Virus record (IMG/VR): IMGVR_UViG_3300010318_000074
Coordinates: 1-21,234 of that record
Length of the DNA: 21,234 bases
Strand: one strand, 5' to 3'
Source of the DNA: a virus
The notes under the pieces were generated by a model, which was given only the letters and a program-made list of their open reading frames with translations, was not told the DNA's origin and searched no databases. Positions 2,199 to 21,234 of this stretch are shown one piece after another. Numbering within the stretch: position 1 is the stretch's first letter; every line of letters starts with the position of its first letter. Made by a program: the position numbers and the translations under genes.

Positions 2199-2231
2199 TG
2201 GTTATTTCCTCTCACCATTGAAGAAGAGGAA
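2199..2231 (+). promoter_or_regulatory. RNA element E1: predicted H-type pseudoknot (family of six)
   Basis: Stem 1 is TGGT (2199-2202) with ACCA (2214-2217). Stem 2 is TTCCTCT (2206-2212) with AGAGGAA (2225-2231). Loop 1 is TAT, loop 2 a single C, and loop 3 TTGAAGA. This copy has a covarying stem 1 compared with AGGT:ACCT in E2, E3, E5 and E6. It ends 22 nt before the ATG at 2254, the same spacing as E2 and E5. Confidence 0.65.
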
Positions 2232-2253
2232 CCCACCCTTAAATCTATTTCTC

Positions 2254-2331
2254 ATGTACGGAGAACAGATTATCATAAACGGTGACATCTTCATGGAAGA
2301 TGACCAAGGCTATTGGATCCAAGTAGGATAA
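2254..2331 (+). CDS. Possible 25-residue small protein
   Basis: ATG at 2254, TAA at 2329-2331. The product begins MYGEQIIINGDIFMED and ends in a Trp-containing segment (GYWIQVG). It is too short for a domain call. Support comes from context: the ATG lies exactly 22 nt after element E1, as the starts at 2399 and 3502 lie after E2 and E5, and a further element follows before the next gene. No homolog is known to me, and it could be a regulatory leader peptide rather than a functional protein. Confidence 0.5.
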   Translation: MYGEQIIINGDIFMEDDQGYWIQVG

Positions 2332-2344
2332 GCCTTACGAGTAC

Positions 2345-2376
2345 AGGTTAAGAGAGATCACCTTTAAGTATCTCTC
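2345..2376 (+). promoter_or_regulatory. RNA element E2: predicted H-type pseudoknot
   Basis: Stem 1 is AGGT (2345-2348) with ACCT (2360-2363). Stem 2 is GAGAGAT (2352-2358) with ATCTCTC (2370-2376). Loop 1 is TAA, loop 2 C, loop 3 TTAAGT. It is preceded by TAC and followed by ATCTTTTCTT, so the stem-2 hairpin alone could also terminate transcription. It ends 22 nt before the ATG at 2399. Confidence 0.75.
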
Positions 2377-2398
2377 ATCTTTTCTTATTTACTGTAAA

Positions 2399-2722
2399 AT
2401 GAAGCATTTAAATTTCATTACAGAAACGCATGAAGGTACTTCTAAATTCACTCCTAATTGGAATGCAGTTGCAATTTCAACTAAACACAATGGGATTAAG
2501 AGATACGAAGATGCTACTTTTGAATTACATCCTGTAAAAGCATTTATGTTTGAAGACGTAGATACTCGTGAGCATTTCATTAAGAACTTCAATAAGATTG
2601 AATTTCGTTATGATGAAATCTTACCGGACGACACAGTTTATTATGTTGTCCATGACTTGACTTCACTTAAGGCTAGTCCTAAAGTGAACTATGCTGACAG
2701 GTTAGTTAGTAGATCTTACTAA
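2399..2722 (+). CDS. Protein of unknown function (107 aa)
   Basis: The ATG at 2399 lies 22 nt after element E2. The product is a soluble protein starting MKHLNFITETHEGTSKF, with several aromatic and acidic segments (FMFEDVDTREHF, EILPDDTVYYVVHD) and no signal peptide or membrane helix. No family is recognised. Its last codons and stop lie inside a terminator hairpin (2704-2727). The opposite-strand frame over the same bases is an overlap shadow. Confidence 0.7.
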   Translation: MKHLNFITETHEGTSKFTPNWNAVAISTKHNGIKRYEDATFELHPVKAFMFEDVDTREHFIKNFNKIEFRYDEILPDDTVYYVVHDLTSLKASPKVNYADRLVSRSY

Positions 2723-2727
2723 CTTTT
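2704..2727 (+). terminator. Rho-independent terminator overlapping the gene end
   Basis: AGTTAGTA (2704-2711) pairs perfectly with TACTAACT (2717-2724) across a GATCT loop and is followed by TTT. The stop codon TAA lies in the second arm. Element E3 begins 3 nt later. Confidence 0.65.
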
Positions 2728-2729
2728 AC

Positions 2730-2761
2730 AGGTGTAGGGAGGAGACCTTTAATTTCCTCCC
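2730..2761 (+). promoter_or_regulatory. RNA element E3: predicted H-type pseudoknot
   Basis: Stem 1 is AGGT (2730-2733) with ACCT (2745-2748). Stem 2 is GGGAGGA (2737-2743) with TCCTCCC (2755-2761). Loop 1 is GTA, loop 2 G, loop 3 TTAATT. This copy is not within 25 nt of a start; the divergent copy E4 follows it 11 nt downstream. Confidence 0.7.
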
Positions 2762-2772
2762 ATTTATGTTAC

Positions 2773-2804
2773 AGGCCATTCGTATCTAGCCTTAAATAGA
2801 TATG
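2773..2804 (+). promoter_or_regulatory. RNA element E4: divergent member of the pseudoknot family
   Basis: Stem 1 is AGGC (2773-2776) with GCCT (2789-2792), a compensatory change from AGGT:ACCT. Stem 2 is CGTATCTA (2781-2788) with TAGATATG (2797-2804), containing one G-U pair. Loop 1 is CATT, loop 2 is absent, loop 3 is TAAA. It is preceded by TTACAGG, as E3 is preceded by TTTACAGG. It ends 25 nt before the lipoprotein start at 2830. Confidence 0.5.
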
Positions 2805-2829
2805 GTTAATTCTTCAAATCTAAACTAAA

Positions 2830-3198
2830 ATGAAGAACTTATTAGTAGTACTAGCAATAGCCCTTGTTGGCTTAACATCTTGTAGTGATTATTCAGGTAA
2901 TCGTATGCCTTCAGCTGACAAGGAAGCAGTAAAGGAAACATTATGCAATCATGCGTATGTAGTCGTGGAAGCAAAGTTTGGACAGATTGAAACTGTTGAA
3001 ATTGAACGTCATTACTTTGACTTGTTTAATGTTGGTGACTCTGTTGGGGTAGAGACTCTATACTCAGCAGACAACGGTCAATCAACTGTTCGTCTTACTC
3101 TTGATCCTGATGACTATTTTGATGGTGACTCTCTTGGTTACTATGAAGTACAGCCTGCAGTAATTCTTAAGAAGTTTAAATCAACTAAAGAGCTATGA
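2830..3198 (+). CDS. Phage-encoded lipoprotein (122 aa)
   Basis: The N-terminus (MKNLLVVLAIALVGLTSC) is a classic lipoprotein signal peptide with lipobox LTSC, so Cys18 should be lipidated and the mature protein anchored in an envelope membrane. SDYSGN follows the cysteine. The mature domain is acidic and probably beta-rich, with no recognised family. It is preceded by tandem RNA elements E3 and E4 and overlaps the next ORF by an ATGA at 3195-3198. Surface lipoproteins of temperate and virulent phages often block superinfection or alter the host envelope; that role is inference here. Confidence 0.8.
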   Translation: MKNLLVVLAIALVGLTSCSDYSGNRMPSADKEAVKETLCNHAYVVVEAKFGQIETVEIERHYFDLFNVGDSVGVETLYSADNGQSTVRLTLDPDDYFDGDSLGYYEVQPAVILKKFKSTKEL

Positions 3199-3350
3199 AG
3201 GTAGAGTTAGATAATCTTTTGTTGTTAGAACTGTTTCGATGGGCACGTCCTATTCATTCAGTTCTTCCTCTGTCTTGGGAGATCCAAGAAGAGATAGGGT
3301 CTGAAGCTGCGGGTGATTTCATTTACTCGCATCATACTAAGTGGAATTAA
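3195..3350 (+). CDS. Small protein of unknown function (51 aa), coupled to lipoprotein
   Basis: The ATG at 3195 overlaps the lipoprotein TGA in an ATGA; the ORF ends with TAA at 3348-3350. The product begins MKVELDNLLLLELFRWARP and is probably helical in its first third. There is no signal peptide. The overlap, typical of real gene pairs in this window, is the main evidence that it is translated. It could act together with the lipoprotein. Confidence 0.6.
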   Translation: MKVELDNLLLLELFRWARPIHSVLPLSWEIQEEIGSEAAGDFIYSHHTKWN

Positions 3351-3360
3351 TACATCGTCA

Positions 3361-3413
3361 ACCGGGCTAACGGTACAGAGAGGGTAATCAGTCCTCTTAC
3401 TTCTAATCTTTTT
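3361..3413 (+). terminator. Two adjacent hairpins, possible terminator
   Basis: ACCG (3361-3364) pairs with CGGT (3371-3374). AGAGG (3379-3383) pairs with CCTCT (3393-3397). A T-rich stretch including TTTTT (3409-3413) follows some 11 nt after the second stem, too far for an ideal terminator. These lie upstream of element E5 and do not share its sequence pattern. Confidence 0.35.
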
Positions 3414-3446
3414 AATATAAATCAGGTTAGTAGTGAAATTTGTCTA

Positions 3447-3479
3447 AGGTAATGAGGGACCACCTATTAAGTGTCCCTC
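3447..3479 (+). promoter_or_regulatory. RNA element E5: predicted H-type pseudoknot
   Basis: Stem 1 is AGGT (3447-3450) with ACCT (3462-3465). Stem 2 is GAGGGAC (3454-3460) with GTCCCTC (3473-3479). Loop 1 is AAT, loop 2 C, loop 3 ATTAAGT. It ends 22 nt before the ATG at 3502 and is followed by TTTTCTTTT, so the hairpin could also terminate. Confidence 0.75.
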
Positions 3480-3501
3480 TTTTCTTTTAATCTTACTTGA
3501 C

Positions 3502-4092
3502 ATGTACAAAGTAATGATATCGTTTAATCCTGACTTCCAGGAGACTTATTGTTTTATGATTGCAAAGGATGGCGGTCGTAATATGGAAGAACTATCATGT
3601 TCTGTAGCTCAGAGATGGGGACATACATCTTATGCTCTTGAAGGAGGTAAACAATCTTTCTTGAATATGTTTGGGAAGGAGATAGGTAACTATTCTTTCA
3701 GTGACATTGAGTATGCTTACGTAGAAGGTAAGCTGGTAAACTGTTACGTGTATGTTACATTCGAAAAGCTTCCTGAAAGCTTAGAATATTACTATGATTA
3801 TGACAGCTATGAGAAGAGTCTACATGAGTCTGCTTGGGATGAAGACTACATAGACAAACAAGCTCTTCAAATGTTTGAAGAAACAGAGCTTGCTAAAGAA
3901 GCTGCAGAAGCAGCTTGGGAAGAAGAAGTTCTTCAAGAGTTCATAGAATCAGAGATTGAAAAGGAAGCTGCAGAAGATGAAGACTATCAACAGGCTGCTG
4001 ATGATATGTCTTTAGATGATTTTATGGATGCTATGGAAGTACCCGAAGAAGATCGTGAGTTTATTAAATCCTTATCGAAAGGCAAGGATTAA
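3502..4092 (+). CDS. Acidic protein with helical C-terminal half, unknown function (196 aa)
   Basis: The ATG at 3502 lies 22 nt after element E5. Residues 1 to about 95 look like a compact alpha/beta domain (MYKVMISFNPDFQETYCF, then VNCYVYVTFEKLPES). The rest is strongly acidic and Ala/Glu-rich, with repeated EEAxxA-like helical turns (LAKEAAEAAWEEE, IEKEAAEDEDY), suggesting a long helix or coiled coil. The tail is DREFIKSLSKGKD. There are no membrane or export signals. The acidity could suit a DNA-mimic or protein-binding role, but nothing identifies a family. Confidence 0.75.
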   Translation: MYKVMISFNPDFQETYCFMIAKDGGRNMEELSCSVAQRWGHTSYALEGGKQSFLNMFGKEIGNYSFSDIEYAYVEGKLVNCYVYVTFEKLPESLEYYYDYDSYEKSLHESAWDEDYIDKQALQMFEETELAKEAAEAAWEEEVLQEFIESEIEKEAAEDEDYQQAADDMSLDDFMDAMEVPEEDREFIKSLSKGKD

Positions 4093-4098
4093 ACTATA

Positions 4099-4129
4099 AG
4101 GTGATGCCCTCTACCTGCAAGTGAGGGCA
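4099..4129 (+). promoter_or_regulatory. RNA element E6: predicted H-type pseudoknot
   Basis: Stem 1 is AGGT (4099-4102) with ACCT (4113-4116). Stem 2 is TGCCCTC (4105-4111) with GAGGGCA (4123-4129). Loop 1 is GA, loop 2 T, loop 3 GCAAGT. It ends 23 nt before the ATG at 4153. There is no strong T tail, so a pure terminator role does not explain this copy. Confidence 0.75.
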
Positions 4130-4152: not shown

Positions 4153-4470
4153 ATGAGAACATATTTTATCGGTGCTATTTCAGTAGCATGGTCATTAACT
4201 TTTATCCTGGTAAGTGTATACAAGCTATATGATGTGGGCTATACTCCTCTTAGTATGGCAGGAATTGCTCTTAATGTAGCTGTTGTAATCTTATGGCTGT
4301 CTTTACTTAGGAGGTATTACGTACGTACCTATGGTATGGAGAAATTGCATAGAGGTCAAGCATCTTTGTATCCTTCTATAGTTGTTGACTATGAGAAGAA
4401 TGTACGTCTGTGCTATATGATCATAGTGTTCAATAGAATTTACATAATCAATTATAAGAAACGCATATGA
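4153..4470 (+). CDS. Membrane protein with two predicted helices (105 aa)
   Basis: The ATG at 4153 follows an A/T-rich leader 23 nt after element E6. Two hydrophobic segments are visible, at about residues 5-24 (IGAISVAWSLTFILVSVYKL) and 33-53 (LSMAGIALNVAVVILWLSLL). A basic stretch (RRYYVRTYG) and a soluble C-terminal part ending YKKRI follow. It is likely an inner-membrane protein. It overlaps the next lipoprotein gene by ATGA at 4467-4470, suggesting a joint envelope function. No family is recognised. Confidence 0.7.
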   Translation: MRTYFIGAISVAWSLTFILVSVYKLYDVGYTPLSMAGIALNVAVVILWLSLLRRYYVRTYGMEKLHRGQASLYPSIVVDYEKNVRLCYMIIVFNRIYIINYKKRI

Positions 4471-5943: not shown

Positions 5944-6255
5944 TCACTTCTTAGTACCTGTACGTTTAGCGGATTTACGTACACCTTTTTTCATTCCATT
6001 TCGGGCTCTATTAGTGGATCTATTTTCCATCTTAATAGTTCCCGATTTGGTATGAGAAGCATCTTTGTTGTCACCATTTCCATAGGTGCCAGCTTTATGG
6101 TTAGCTTTATTAGATTGTACTCTATTGCTAACCTTTTTCTTTTGGTATTCTTTATCGTATGCAAGCTTCTTAGCCTTAGCTTTAGGATTACTAGCGTAAT
6201 ACTTAGCAGACTTAGACTTGCCACTTGATTTACCAGCTAATGAATTTCTTGCCAT
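5944..6255 (-). CDS. Small, very basic conserved phage protein (103 aa)
   Basis: This is the only minus-strand gene. The start is the CAT at 6253-6255, giving MARNSLAGKSSGKSKSAKYY; the frame is open further but would read antisense through the tRNA. The product is rich in Lys, Arg, Ser and Asn. The motifs AGTYGNGD, ASHTKSG and NRARNG are shared, as I recall, by a family of small proteins in many tailed phages, sometimes near tRNA genes, with no established function. Basic composition suggests nucleic acid binding. A TACCTTTG box (-7-like) lies on this strand at 6261-6268, only 5 nt from the start. Confidence 0.75.
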   Translation of the reverse strand: MARNSLAGKSSGKSKSAKYYASNPKAKAKKLAYDKEYQKKKVSNRVQSNKANHKAGTYGNGDNKDASHTKSGTIKMENRSTNRARNGMKKGVRKSAKRTGTKK

Positions 6256-6278: not shown

Positions 6279-6352
6279 GCCCTCTTAGCTCAACTGGATA
6301 GAGCAACGCACTTCTAATGCGTAGGTTATAGGTTCGATTCCTATAGAGGGTA
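6279..6352 (+). tRNA. tRNA-Arg (anticodon UCU)
   Basis: A full cloverleaf is visible. The acceptor GCCCTCT pairs with AGAGGGT, with one G-U at the first pair. The D stem is GCTC/GAGC. The anticodon stem ACGCA/TGCGT has loop CTTCTAA (anticodon TCT at 6313-6315). There is a 5-nt variable loop and a T stem ATAGG/CCTAT with loop TTCGATT. The discriminator is A6352; CCA is not encoded. It reads AGA, a codon used often in the surrounding genes, so it probably supports phage translation. It lies just upstream of, and antisense to, the 5' flank of the minus-strand gene. Confidence 0.95.
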
Positions 6353-6388
6353 CAATTCAATTAAGTTTAACTCCTAAAAAAATAAAAA

Positions 6389-7079: not shown

Positions 7080-8033
7080 ATGAAAAGTACATCAGTATCA
7101 GCAGGAAAAAAAGTTTCAGCATCAGCAGCAATGATAGAAGAAGTTTTAGCAGAGACTTCTAAAATCTTAAAAGAAAGAGAAGAAGAGAAAGCTCATAGAG
7201 AAGCAGCTTCTGGAAAGGATATCAGCGGTTATATCAACATGGGAGGATATATGCTCAATGAGGGCATGTATAAAGTAATGGTGAGAAATGTAGAAGCTGG
7301 AACTAACACTTTGTTGTTGGGACCAACTGGTGCAGGAAAGACTGAACTCGTAGATGCAATCGCTAAGCATCTGGATTTGCCACTAACTATCATTGATATG
7401 GGTACTATGACAGACCCTATCGTATCATTGGTAGGTAGTCATACAATCAGTGTACAAGACGGGGTTACCCGATCTGAGTTCAAGCGTTCAAGATTCTCTG
7501 AGATCATCCAGAAACCAGGCATCGTTCTTTTGGATGAGCTGTCAAGAGCTTCTGCTCAAGCTAATAACTTGCTGTTTCCTGTATTGGATTTCCGTAAGGA
7601 GTTGGCTATGGAGTATGACTTTGAGGATAGCACTCCTGTAAAAGTACATCCTGAATGTGTGTTCGTTGCTACTGCTAACTTAGGTAGTGAGTACACAGGT
7701 GCATCTAAACTTGACCGAGCATTGGTAGATAGATTCATGCTTCTTCAAGTGAAAGAGTTGCCTTCAAATGTAGTATCATTTATCATGGCAAATCTTTTCC
7801 CAGAGATTGGAAAATCTGAATTGAAATCTATCATTGATACTTATGTTCAGATTAACACTGGATTTAAGTCATATGATAACCAAGCTTCATTCTCTTTGAG
7901 ACACTTGAAGAATGTTTGTGAGCTGGTTCAAGATGGATTTACTCCTTACGATTCTTTCTACATGATCTATGATGGTTTAGCACCTGACGTAGAGAAAGTT
8001 CAATCTTCAATCTTTAACGCTATTAAAAAGTAA
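7080..8033 (+). CDS. MoxR/CobS-like AAA+ ATPase (317 aa)
   Basis: An ATP-driven remodelling or chelatase-type motor. After a charged N-terminal helix (about 1-45) come Walker A GPTGAGKT (81-88), Walker B IVLLDE (148-153), sensor 1 VATAN (Asn200), an arginine-finger candidate in LDRALVDRF (Arg213 or Arg218) and sensor 2 in SFSLRHL (Arg274). The order and spacing fit the MoxR/CobS branch of AAA+ proteins, which form hexamers and work with VWA-domain partners. The partner gene starts 3 nt after the stop. CobS/CobT-like pairs occur in several large phages; their target is unknown and true cobalt chelation is unlikely without the rest of that pathway. Confidence 0.88.
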   Translation: MKSTSVSAGKKVSASAAMIEEVLAETSKILKEREEEKAHREAASGKDISGYINMGGYMLNEGMYKVMVRNVEAGTNTLLLGPTGAGKTELVDAIAKHLDLPLTIIDMGTMTDPIVSLVGSHTISVQDGVTRSEFKRSRFSEIIQKPGIVLLDELSRASAQANNLLFPVLDFRKELAMEYDFEDSTPVKVHPECVFVATANLGSEYTGASKLDRALVDRFMLLQVKELPSNVVSFIMANLFPEIGKSELKSIIDTYVQINTGFKSYDNQASFSLRHLKNVCELVQDGFTPYDSFYMIYDGLAPDVEKVQSSIFNAIKK

Positions 8034-8036
8034 ATT

Positions 8037-9620
8037 ATGGCATTCTTCAAAACTACAAGCTCTTCTAAAAAGAAGACCGGAAGTTCTTGGAGTAGATGGG
8101 AATCCTCCTTCTTTGGAGGGTTTCTGCCTACTCTTTTGAATCACTCTTATGTTAAACTACCTAAGGAAATAATAACAAGTGTTGCTACATCAGCTGAATA
8201 TGATAGAAGACTATTCAAAACGGACGTATACAAGCTGTTGAGTATGGTTATCTATTATTACTTTTCTCTTCATAGAGGAAATGTTAGGACATTTGTAGAA
8301 GAAGTTACCCGTTCTCCGGCTGATCTTCAGGAAACCATTAAGTCTAATGACTATATGTACTATTTTCAAAATGATATAGGAAGTTATACTCCAGAAGCCA
8401 GTAGTCATTTTGAAGTATTAGTTAAACACTTTAGGGATTTATTAGAGGAAGGAAAAATAAGTTCGATAATTGTAAAGCTAAATGATTCTTTTTTAGAGGA
8501 CATGGTAGATCAAATTATAGGATCTAATCTTGAAATCAAATCACTAATTGAGCATTATAAAACTAGTATCCTAGCTGGAGAAATTCATTATGAGTTTCCT
8601 ATTAACCCAGAAGAAGGTAAGAGTTACAGTGATCAGTTTTCTAGAGATTCAGAAGGTGATGAACAATTTATGAGAAACCTTAAACAGATTATTTCTTTTG
8701 ATTCTCTTGGCAATTTATCTGAAGACTCTATTAAATTAGTTAAAGGAGGATATGGTTCTCAAGATGCTTGTGATCCAGATCTTTTAAAGAAGACTAAGTT
8801 TTTAATGCCTTCAAGTCCTTATCCAACTAAGGCGTATGAAAATATGTTTGGGGAAAACTATGAGGATTTAAGTAGACAAATATCTGCTCACCTTATAAAG
8901 ACTTTGGATATTACTTTTGATCCTACATCAGACGTTATTAAATCTACTAGACAGGGTAAGATTGACTCTAACAAGTTAGTATGTGCTACCGCTGGAGATT
9001 TGAATGTCTACCAAAGGAAAGAAGAGAATCAAATAGTAAGACCTTTCAAAGTTGTAATGCTCGGAGATGAATCAGGTTCTATGTGTGATTCTGCTAGAAT
9101 ACAAGCTTTTATGATGGAAGCTTACTACAATGGTTTCTGTGAGATTATGAATCCAGATGACATCTTTGTTTATGGGCACTCAGGTGAGTATGATCCTGAG
9201 ATATACATCTACAATGAGCCTGGAGTTACTGACTTTAAAGAAAGAATACAGTTAATGGATTCTAAGTGCGAGAACTATGACTCTCCTGTGATTGAAAAGA
9301 TCCATGAAAGAGTTAGAGGTATGACTGATTCTCCTATACTTATGCTGTATTTTTCTGATGGTGCTCCTTCTGGTAATGGATATGGAGGAAATTCTGCTGA
9401 GAAAGAACTTAGAAGAGTATCTGAAAAGTGTAAGAGAGATGAGTTCTTAGTTGTTGGTGTAGGTTTTGCCGGTAGAGATCTTTCACAGCTGTATCATTTT
9501 CATGTAAATGTTAATGAAAGACAGTTAATGTGGGATTGGAAAGACTATGGTAAAATAGAACCTTCTGTTCTTAAGGCTACTGCTACTTATAACAAAGCAG
9601 TTAAGACTGTCTTCTGTTAA
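8037..9620 (+). CDS. CobT-like VWA-domain protein, partner of the AAA+ ATPase (527 aa)
   Basis: Residues 1 to about 330 are a probably helical region of unknown fold. The C-terminal third is a von Willebrand A domain with a full MIDAS: DESGSM (344-349), an ENYDSPVIE segment (about 412-420) in the place of the second metal-loop motif, and YFSDGAPSG (438-446) followed by LVVGVGFAGRDLSQLYH. The SDGAP and GVGF motifs resemble the C-terminal domain of cobaltochelatase subunit CobT more than integrin-type VWA domains. In that family the VWA subunit docks on the AAA+ ring and couples ATP hydrolysis to a target. The gene is closely linked to the ATPase and ends a transcription unit, with terminators at 9632-9698. 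Confidence 0.85.
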   Translation: MAFFKTTSSSKKKTGSSWSRWESSFFGGFLPTLLNHSYVKLPKEIITSVATSAEYDRRLFKTDVYKLLSMVIYYYFSLHRGNVRTFVEEVTRSPADLQETIKSNDYMYYFQNDIGSYTPEASSHFEVLVKHFRDLLEEGKISSIIVKLNDSFLEDMVDQIIGSNLEIKSLIEHYKTSILAGEIHYEFPINPEEGKSYSDQFSRDSEGDEQFMRNLKQIISFDSLGNLSEDSIKLVKGGYGSQDACDPDLLKKTKFLMPSSPYPTKAYENMFGENYEDLSRQISAHLIKTLDITFDPTSDVIKSTRQGKIDSNKLVCATAGDLNVYQRKEENQIVRPFKVVMLGDESGSMCDSARIQAFMMEAYYNGFCEIMNPDDIFVYGHSGEYDPEIYIYNEPGVTDFKERIQLMDSKCENYDSPVIEKIHERVRGMTDSPILMLYFSDGAPSGNGYGGNSAEKELRRVSEKCKRDEFLVVGVGFAGRDLSQLYHFHVNVNERQLMWDWKDYGKIEPSVLKATATYNKAVKTVFC

Positions 9621-9756: not shown

Positions 9757-9790
9757 AATACCCGGACTGATAACGATTGGTCCGGGTATT
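9757..9790 (+). promoter_or_regulatory. 11-bp hairpin at the predicted mRNA 5' end
   Basis: AATACCCGGAC (9757-9767) pairs perfectly with GTCCGGGTATT (9780-9790) across a 12-nt loop. It is followed by TTAATTTTAAAA and the ATG at 9811. It could be a 5' stabilising stem, an attenuator, or a second terminator for the upstream unit if the promoter call is wrong. Confidence 0.6.
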
Positions 9791-9810: not shown

Positions 9811-10209
9811 ATGAAAAAGATTATTTTAATACTTTCGTTAGTAAGCCTCTGTCTAACTGGTTTTACTCAATCAGAGGAGTTCGTCCGTATTTATACAGAA
9901 TGGAGAGTACTAGACGGAGAAACATTTGAAGTTGAGAAGTCTAATTTTGAAATTACTATCGTTACTTTCAACCCTGGAGGTAAGAATATGATAGAAATCA
10001 AAAGAGAGGGCTCAGACCCTTTTTACTTATTTCAAGTAGGAGATGTTGACGATGATACAGATGATAACGGTAAGGCTGTTCAGACTATCAAAGCTGTCAA
10101 TGAAGAGGGTTTAGATGTTATGTTTAGCTTTTTTGAAGATGATAAAAAAGGAGTGTTACTGGTCTTCGAAGATTATGACGGAGTAAGACTGGTTAATTTC
10201 TGTAATTAA
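9811..10209 (+). CDS. Secreted or periplasmic protein of unknown function (132 aa)
   Basis: The start at 9811 gives MKKIILILSLVSLCLTGFTQ, a standard Sec signal peptide with likely cleavage near Gln20; an upstream TTG in frame would place the hairpin in the coding region and is rejected. The mature part is acidic and beta-rich, with FNPGGKNMIEIKREGS and an Asp-rich turn (VGDVDDDTDDNG) that could bind calcium. It has its own promoter and 5' hairpin. No family is recognised. Together with the two lipoproteins it is the third phage product here sent to the host envelope. Confidence 0.7.
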   Translation: MKKIILILSLVSLCLTGFTQSEEFVRIYTEWRVLDGETFEVEKSNFEITIVTFNPGGKNMIEIKREGSDPFYLFQVGDVDDDTDDNGKAVQTIKAVNEEGLDVMFSFFEDDKKGVLLVFEDYDGVRLVNFCN

Positions 10210-18984: not shown

Positions 18985-19013
18985 ATAGGGGGTGTAAAAG
19001 CCCCCTATTATTT
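18985..19013 (+). terminator. Strong rho-independent terminator after SSB-like gene
   Basis: ATAGGGGG (18985-18992) pairs perfectly with CCCCCTAT (19001-19008) across an 8-nt loop, followed by TATTTCTATTTTT. It ends the polymerase-to-SSB unit 15 nt before the primase start. Confidence 0.85.
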
Positions 19014-20034: not shown

Positions 20035-21234
20035 ATGAAATTAGAAACATTATCATCTTCAGTAGAAATAAGCACTACTATGAAGATGGATTCAATTAAA
20101 GCAGAACTTGCTGGGGACAAGCTCCATAAGATGTGGGACTTATTACAGTCCCCTTATAGAGATCCTATATCCTCTTTGATTAGAGAGTATGTAAGTAACT
20201 GCTTTGACTCCCACATAGAAGCTGGTGTAAGTACTCCTGTTTATGTTGCTATGGATGAAGATCAATCAGGGACCTTCTGGTTATGTGAAGACTTCGGTGT
20301 TGGTATTAGTCCAGAGAGAGCTAAAAATATTTTTATGAAATATCTAAGCTCTACTAAGGAAGAGACCAATGAACAGATAGGTGCCTTTGGTATGGGATCT
20401 AAATCAGGTCTTGGTTATACAGATGTAGTACATATACGCACCAGATTTGATGGAACAGAATACCAGTATATGCTGCATAAAACATCTGATGCTCCAACTT
20501 TATCCTTAGTATCTACTAGTGAGACTGATAAAAGAAATGGCACTCAGATTAAAATTTATCTTAAAGATAGTTATGATGAGAAAAATAGTTTTAAAGCAAA
20601 AACTCAGGTTCAATTAGCTTACTTTGATAACATTGTTTATGGTAAGCAGCTGGATCACTTGAACAAAGATTTTATTATCTATGATCAAGATACCTTTGTT
20701 TATAATCCTAACTCTCAGAGAAACCAGGCTCACATTCTTATAGGTAATGTAGTATATCCTATAAACTGGGAAACTGTAGGGGAGTCTAGACTAAAAGATA
20801 TTCCTATAGGTTTAAAGTTTTCTATTGGAGAACTGCCTGTGATCTTTACTAGGGAAGATATTAGATACTCTGATGCAGCATTAAAGCTTATTAAAGATAG
20901 AATGTTAGAGGCTGAGTTAGAGATTGCTAATTTAGTATTTCCAGAAGAGCTAAAGTATACTGATTTTTTAGAGTATGTAAAAGCTCTAAGAGGTAATATA
21001 GAATATGTTTTTAGTGAAGACCATGTACTAAGTTTACCTGGCTTTAAGGCTGACAGCAGAATAGTGTATACTCCTAATCCTCACTTCTCTACTAAGTTTA
21101 TAGAGTGTTTGAAGAGTAAATATAGCAGTGTAATATCATCATTATATAGTTCTGGTTATCCTATTTATAGAGTGATTAAGGGTGGTAAAAATTACGCTAC
21201 TAGTTATACCCAGTATATAGATCCTCTTAAAAAT
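20035..21234 (+). CDS. rIIA-like GHKL ATPase (3' end outside window, 400 aa seen)
   Basis: The ATG at 20035 lies 2 nt after the primase stop and the frame stays open to the window end. GHKL (Hsp90/GyrB/MutL) ATP-site motifs: N box REYVSNCFDSH (Glu51, Asn55, Asp58), G1 box EDFGVGIS (Asp86, Gly88, Gly90) and G2 box IGAFGMGSKSGLGYTD (115-130). YLSSTKEETNEQ before the G2 box closely resembles phage T4-type rIIA proteins, which counter host exclusion systems and affect lysis timing. The role here is inferred from family membership. No other GHKL family (topoisomerase, MutL) shows this YxSSTK segment to my knowledge. Confidence 0.8.
   Translation, partial: MKLETLSSSVEISTTMKMDSIKAELAGDKLHKMWDLLQSPYRDPISSLIREYVSNCFDSHIEAGVSTPVYVAMDEDQSGTFWLCEDFGVGISPERAKNIFMKYLSSTKEETNEQIGAFGMGSKSGLGYTDVVHIRTRFDGTEYQYMLHKTSDAPTLSLVSTSETDKRNGTQIKIYLKDSYDEKNSFKAKTQVQLAYFDNIVYGKQLDHLNKDFIIYDQDTFVYNPNSQRNQAHILIGNVVYPINWETVGESRLKDIPIGLKFSIGELPVIFTREDIRYSDAALKLIKDRMLEAELEIANLVFPEELKYTDFLEYVKALRGNIEYVFSEDHVLSLPGFKADSRIVYTPNPHFSTKFIECLKSKYSSVISSLYSSGYPIYRVIKGGKNYATSYTQYIDPLKN

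Follow-up and report, generated by a model that had tools for sequence, protein, structure and literature searches.

Putative H-type pseudoknots in the 5' leaders of crAss-like phage genes and their likeness to the T4 gene 32 operator

The closest described counterparts of the elements considered here are pseudoknots in the 5' leaders of messenger RNAs (mRNAs), above all the gene 32 leader of phages T4, T2 and RB69. The elements themselves, E1 to E6, lie in IMG/VR record IMGVR_UViG_3300010318_000074, a virus record of 21,234 bases that was analysed whole and is called the window below; an earlier note, made from the letters of the window, had described five regular copies and a divergent sixth, and had likened them to the T2/T4 gene 32 leader. 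In that system gp32 docks on the gene 32 pseudoknot and then spreads over an A/U-rich spacer (PMC535899), and a review of 2010 regarded it as possibly the sole viral case of a pseudoknot in translational autoregulation (PMC3014915).

The likeness to gene 32 is one of geometry, and a check on the T4 sequence showed it to be close but not exact. In the T4 record, the pseudoknot comprised a first helix TGCC:GGTA (4 bp, one of them G-U), a first loop of A, a second helix GCTATGA:TCATAGC, a junction of 0 nt and a third loop of AAGTG, with 39 nt to the AUG and the 5' end at -67, in agreement with PMC3014915. The T4, T2 and RB69 leaders share with the family a short 5' helix, a 7-bp 3' helix, a minimal junction and a third loop of 5-7 nt (PMC3014915, PMC535899); an open A/U-rich spacer leads to the AUG in both T4 and the family. 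They differ in the first loop (1 nt in T4 against 2-4 nt), the junction (0 against 1 nt) and the spacer (39 against 16-28 nt). Unlike gene 32, moreover, the family has a GG:CC core in its box, precedes several unrelated genes per genome, occurs without Shine-Dalgarno sequences and has no sequence relation to the T4 leader; the covariance model R2, described below, gave no match in the T4 gene 32 region, that is, no homology by sequence. By analogy, the family may act as a leader pseudoknot operator, but it would lie outside the gene 32 family by its sequence and because the T4 element serves a single gene.

Ribosomal-protein leader pseudoknots are of another size and sequence than the phage family, while preQ1-I and similar H-type pseudoknot riboswitches form a compact fold of about 30 nt in the 5' leader. 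No Rfam riboswitch model matched the window or the relatives searched; at gathering and at relaxed thresholds, Rfam returned nothing for these sequences except transfer RNAs (tRNAs) and chance matches, in keeping with the earlier statement that no described family with this consensus was known. No description of leader pseudoknots in crAss-like phages was found in the literature searched. The rpsO/S15-type leaders of E. coli, named together with gene 32 in PMC3014915, control initiation of the gene behind them, as is proposed here for the family, whereas the genes of the family are not ribosomal.

The elements in the window

On balance, E1 to E6 appear to belong to a single family of H-type pseudoknots, 29-33 nt long, in crAss-like phage 5' leaders, and their folding as RNA pseudoknots is strongly supported by sequence comparison. 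The first helix (S1) has 4 bp with a GG:CC core and the first loop 2-4 nt; the second helix (S2) has 6-7 bp of free sequence, the junction 1 nt, and the third loop 5-7 nt, mostly ending in AAG(U). The helical segments follow the order S1-S2-S1'-S2', giving two interlocked helices. Constant geometry, the GG:CC core, the AAG of the third loop and the freedom of S2 would fit a fold stabilised by loop adenines packed against S1.

The window was scanned mechanically with a pattern consisting of a 4-nt box, 1-4 nt, a 7-nt arm, 0-2 nt, the complement of the box, 5-8 nt and the complement of the arm. This recovered E1, E2, E3, E5 and E6 on the + strand at 2199-4129, together with one further + strand match, weak and AT-rich, at 20732; order-2 Markov sequences gave a mean of 0.58 matches per window, overlapping registers counted. 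The six elements, the divergent E4 included, agreed letter for letter with the earlier description, and the box and stem sequences had been reported correctly. E1 had the lowest covariance-model score of the five (18.3 bits). All six elements are on the + strand, and are listed here with the open reading frames (ORFs) behind them; each element is given as box, first loop, S2 arm, junction, box complement, third loop and S2 arm complement.

2199-2231, + strand: E1 pseudoknot; box TGGT (2199-2202), TAT, TTCCTCT (2206-2212), C, ACCA (2214-2217), TTGAAGA, AGAGGAA (2225-2231); ATG at 2254, 22 nt past the 3' arm
2254-2331, + strand: 25-codon ORF (MYGEQIIINGDI...), behind E1
2345-2376, + strand: E2 pseudoknot; AGGT, TAA, GAGAGAT, C, ACCT, TTAAGT, ATCTCTC; ATG 22 nt past the 3' arm
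2399-2722, + strand: ORF of 107 amino acids (aa), behind E2
2730-2761, + strand: E3 pseudoknot; AGGT, GTA, GGGAGGA, G, ACCT, TTAATT, TCCTCCC; in tandem, 12 nt before E4
2773-2805, + strand: E4, divergent pseudoknot; AGGC, CAT, TCGTATCT, A, GCCT, TAAAT, AGATATGG, with G-U pairs; ATG 24 nt past the 3' arm
2830-3198, + strand: 122-aa ORF, behind E3 and E4; lipoprotein-like signal (LTSCSD) by sequence, without a family match
3447-3479, + strand: E5 pseudoknot; AGGT, AAT, GAGGGAC, C, ACCT, ATTAAGT, GTCCCTC; ATG 22 nt past the 3' arm
3502-4092, + strand: 196-aa acidic ORF, behind E5
4099-4129, + strand: E6 pseudoknot; AGGT, GA, TGCCCTC, T, ACCT, GCAAGT, GAGGGCA; ATG 23 nt past the 3' arm
4153-4470, + strand: 105-aa ORF, behind E6; hydrophobic, membrane-like stretches by sequence

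The combination of a 7-bp stem and a 4-bp box, as first described, stands for the window. Among relatives the stem is shortened to 6 bp in one subgroup, and the fourth box pair does not always form, with A.G or A.A in three copies.

Pairing of both helices

Support for the short first helix was obtained independently of the choice of elements. Perfect hairpins of at least 6 bp with loops of 9-13 nt were scored for a 4-bp box at the right place. Of 88 intergenic hairpins situated 12-32 nt ahead of an ATG that opens an ORF, 15 had the box, compared with 47 of 2712 others (Fisher, 2.4e-10). With the window left out, the proportions were 10/80 and 42/2634 (Fisher, 1.6e-6), although some of these copies are orthologous and the effective number is therefore smaller, about seven independent copies outside the window.

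Compensatory change in both helices was seen in the orthologous leaders of one gene, P5372:

5372-5932, + strand: gene P5372; orthologs in nine other records carry an element in their leaders

Seven of these records combine TGGT:ACCA with GGGGAC:GTCCCC, while the other two combine TGGC:GCCA with GGTGAC:GTCACC. In an alignment of 17 elements every cell was a pair and both sides changed in 10 of 11 pairs; the covariation score was reached by no shuffle or slide, a test that is partly circular because the elements were chosen for pairing. Box pair 1 varied between A-U, U-A and C-G in this alignment, and pair 4 between U-A and C-G. The stems of E4 and of two copies in relatives (G2a and G13a) hold G-U pairs, which preserve an RNA helix and not a DNA inverted repeat. 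The earlier proposal of two covarying helices was thereby borne out at one orthologous leader and in the alignment, while its own stated ground for refutation, a want of covariation support for the 4-bp helix, was answered by the box enrichment and by the compensation between orthologous leaders.

A pattern with an open stem (TGGT N9 TACCA N CAAGT), run over IMG/VR, matched at least 120 places. Among the 120 matches listed, eight had fully complementary arms (6/6) where 0.03 were expected, although all eight share one stem sequence and are therefore related rather than independent. A position 24-30 nt before an ATG was found for 8/8 of the listed matches with 6/6 arms and for 0/8 of those with 5/6 pairs. 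Since the pairing is kept while the letters change, the fold very probably has a genuine role, as a switch or an aid to landing, in the synthesis of the proteins behind it.

Distribution and position before start codons

The window holds only the replication part of a Crassvirales-type genome, and its PolA, primase and Sak4-like proteins have their nearest named phages in the Steigviridae. Relatives were gathered by protein searches, and a wider set was reached through P5372. Two records have a PolA 71% identical to that of the window, namely G1 (L040, 83 kb) and G2 (L007, 54 kb). Crassvirales-related TerL, portal and major capsid protein were found in G1, G2, G13, G16 and G22, save that the truncated G2, unlike the other relatives checked for these hallmarks, had no major capsid protein match.

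Elements of this layout stand ahead of genes in nine or more related records of Crassvirales. G1 carries AGGT:ACCT, TGGT:ACCA and ATGG:CCAT elements, G2 and G13 carry two elements each, and L097 has CGGT:ACCG besides TGGT:ACCA; the element before P5372 orthologs occurs in G16, G22, G23, G24, G25, L096, L097, L181 and L224. A search of relatives with a covariance model, which had been proposed at the outset, returned matches upstream of genes in other phages. The first model represented S2 and sequence and was seeded by 16 copies; run on 828 kb of these genomes, it produced 19 matches at E<0.01, all of them elements (seeds or orthologs). The second model (R2) was built from other phages only, including a weaker candidate from G19 and no window sequences. 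When R2 was applied to both strands of the window, ranks 1-4 were E6 (28.7 bits, E=1e-4), E2, E3 and E5 (E=0.06-0.13). An AGGT-class pattern run over IMG/VR found just one G1 copy (G1a) and one stemless place, as expected of chance.

Membership of crAss-like phages and a near-fixed distance before start codons both go beyond what was described earlier. In 19 of 21 copies, 16-28 nt separate the 3' arm from an ORF-opening ATG, compared with 10% of random positions; the two outside this range are L097c and E3, the first of the tandem pair E3-E4. The distance from the upstream stop codon is variable, from about 0 to 96 nt. At P5372 loci the gene behind the element is constant and the upstream neighbour varies, and among the seven TGGT-type loci identity was 98% in the element, 61% in coding nucleotides 31-120, 60% in the spacer and 30% in the 25 nt upstream. 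Since the downstream gene is constant, the upstream neighbour changes and the distance to the ATG is set, the element is to be counted as part of that downstream gene's leader. The mRNAs of Flavobacterium johnsoniae show low structure from -20 to +20, and Shine-Dalgarno sequences are not used there (PMC6847099); with its 3' helix ending 16-28 nt before the AUG, the pseudoknot would lie just outside the initiation site. The spacer between pseudoknot and AUG is U/A-rich.

Several further observations were made in these records. In the cultured phage phi14:2 (NC_021806.1, 98855-98883), the sequence CGTG AA GTGTAAC CACG ACTT GTTACAC precedes a gene, 31 nt from its ATG; it may be a distant member and was not matched by the covariance model. 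L096 (110-468) and L181 (reverse strand, just upstream of the element) contain tandem tRNA-like 3' halves, each made of a T-arm GGTTCGANTCC and an acceptor and mostly bearing CCA, which were called by neither ARAGORN nor Rfam; the last of them stops 1-2 nt before the pseudoknot. In L040 (G1), an 8-bp hairpin at 7399-7425, followed by T9, takes the place of the pseudoknot before P5372, and the UUAAGU that closes it is the third-loop sequence of the family.

P5372 itself matched no family in Pfam or PHROGs, its one PHROG at E=0.03 being at chance level, and Foldseek against the PDB gave E values of 0.2 or worse. VIA gave Z values of 2-2.5 to OB-fold proteins on one predicted model and mixed families on a second, where the result was not repeated. 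P5372 as a single-strand-binding protein is an unproven and weak lead, given no family, Foldseek E>=0.2 and VIA Z<=2.5.

Elsewhere in the window, a MoxR-type AAA ATPase and another large protein that reads as vWA-like are encoded at 7080-9620; this pair is identical in IMGVR_UViG_3300010297_000144 and had no match in G1 or G2. A lysine-rich basic protein gene at 5944-6255 (- strand), conserved at 61-63% in G1 and G2, adjoins a tRNA-Arg(TCT) at 6279-6353 (+ strand). The host-type -7 promoter box TAHHTTTG occurred 19 times in the window against 14 expected, and at none of the elements.

Proposed function and competing explanations

By analogy with known leader pseudoknots, the family seems somewhat more apt than not to control translation initiation of downstream genes, whether upward or downward. 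The pseudoknot would abut the upstream border of the mRNA segment that the 30S subunit holds at initiation, leaving the U/A-rich spacer free, and would most likely set or regulate initiation of the gene behind. It might be recognised by shape or act mechanically. Our best guess, by likeness to T4 gene 32, is a translational operator read by a protein: a protein, of phage or host, would dock specifically on the pseudoknot and then cover or free the spacer, much as at the gene 32 operator. In a ligand-free variant, it would merely insulate initiation from the upstream gene.

A number of observations weigh against control of initiation by a conserved pseudoknot. No common family or known function links the genes behind the elements, and the analysis turned up no regulator. 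S1 has just 3 bp in G2b (AGG:CCT) and an A.G mismatch at pair 4 in G1c and G13b, and nested folding often favours other pairings of the box, with a program that cannot model pseudoknots. No element precedes P5372 in the window, G2, G13 or L099/L100, and in G1 its place is taken by a hairpin that has a UUAAGU loop and no box; these gaps show that the element is not indispensable. In 855 kb from PolA relatives at a greater distance, the first model gave no match with E below 0.7, and no convincing element was found in phi14:2, crAss001 or cr108.

The best surviving alternative, which we consider unlikely, is a stabilising or processing element that marks a processed mRNA 5' end and blocks 5'-end-dependent decay with no control of initiation. 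Short copies that lie between genes of a block read in one direction, often with 3-17 nt separating them from the upstream stop codon, would suit such a role, as would L096 and L181, where the element begins 1-2 nt past the CCA of a tRNA-like 3' half and tRNA maturation would leave the pseudoknot at the mRNA 5' end. However, it does not require a near-constant distance to the AUG, a plain hairpin would suffice for it, and no cleavage motif was seen upstream of the elements.

That the elements are intergenic terminators of a variant intrinsic type, S2 forming the terminator hairpin, is improbable. This reading draws on the T-rich stretch after several copies (E5, G13b and G16) and on GC-rich terminator-like hairpins at similar distances before other genes of these phages, but the 8 nt past the stem contain a single T in E1, G2a and G13a, and several other copies have broken T stretches. 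The family as a whole does not show the intrinsic-terminator pattern of a GC-rich hairpin with a T run at once behind it; other copies have T-rich spacers. Terminators would also leave the conservation of S1 unexplained, and the element tracks the downstream gene rather than the upstream one. As a separate observation, GC-rich terminator-like hairpins lie in the window at 9760-9790 and 18990-19010, 18-22 nt before the ORFs at 9811 and 19028, and comparable hairpins precede many genes of relatives.

It is about as improbable, and if anything a little more so, that only the S2 hairpin matters and that the complementarity of the box is accidental. The G1 ortholog before P5372, which keeps the UUAAGU hairpin without a box, could be taken in this sense, as could the shortness of S1 and its imperfection in three copies; the box enrichment and the compensatory changes at box pairs 1 and 4, also at one orthologous locus, speak against it. 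A small ligand-binding riboswitch of H-type pseudoknot form is very improbable: the size is near that of the smallest known pseudoknot riboswitches, but Rfam gave no match, the sole conserved letters (GG:CC and the loop AAG) would serve to stabilise such a knot, and the genes behind the elements are unrelated and mostly without known function. DNA-level protein-binding sites are scarcely credible, for while the same letters in DNA make two interlocked inverted repeats, strand and ATG distance are fixed, the stems contain G-U pairs, and a DNA-binding protein could not tolerate free stem sequence.

Returning to control of translation initiation, a wider possibility, put forward tentatively, is a Crassvirales leader-pseudoknot regulon, in which one RNA-binding factor would read the same pseudoknot on many early mRNAs. 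If true, this would represent post-transcriptional control by phages, exerted on translation in hosts without Shine-Dalgarno pairing and unlike the single-gene T4 case. The crAss-like phages rank among the most abundant viruses infecting Bacteroidota, a phylum whose mRNAs carry no Shine-Dalgarno sequences, and their control of translation is, to our knowledge, poorly understood. Multi-copy, covarying leader pseudoknots offer a set of defined RNAs and target genes, together with compensatory mutants, for direct tests of Shine-Dalgarno-free control of initiation.

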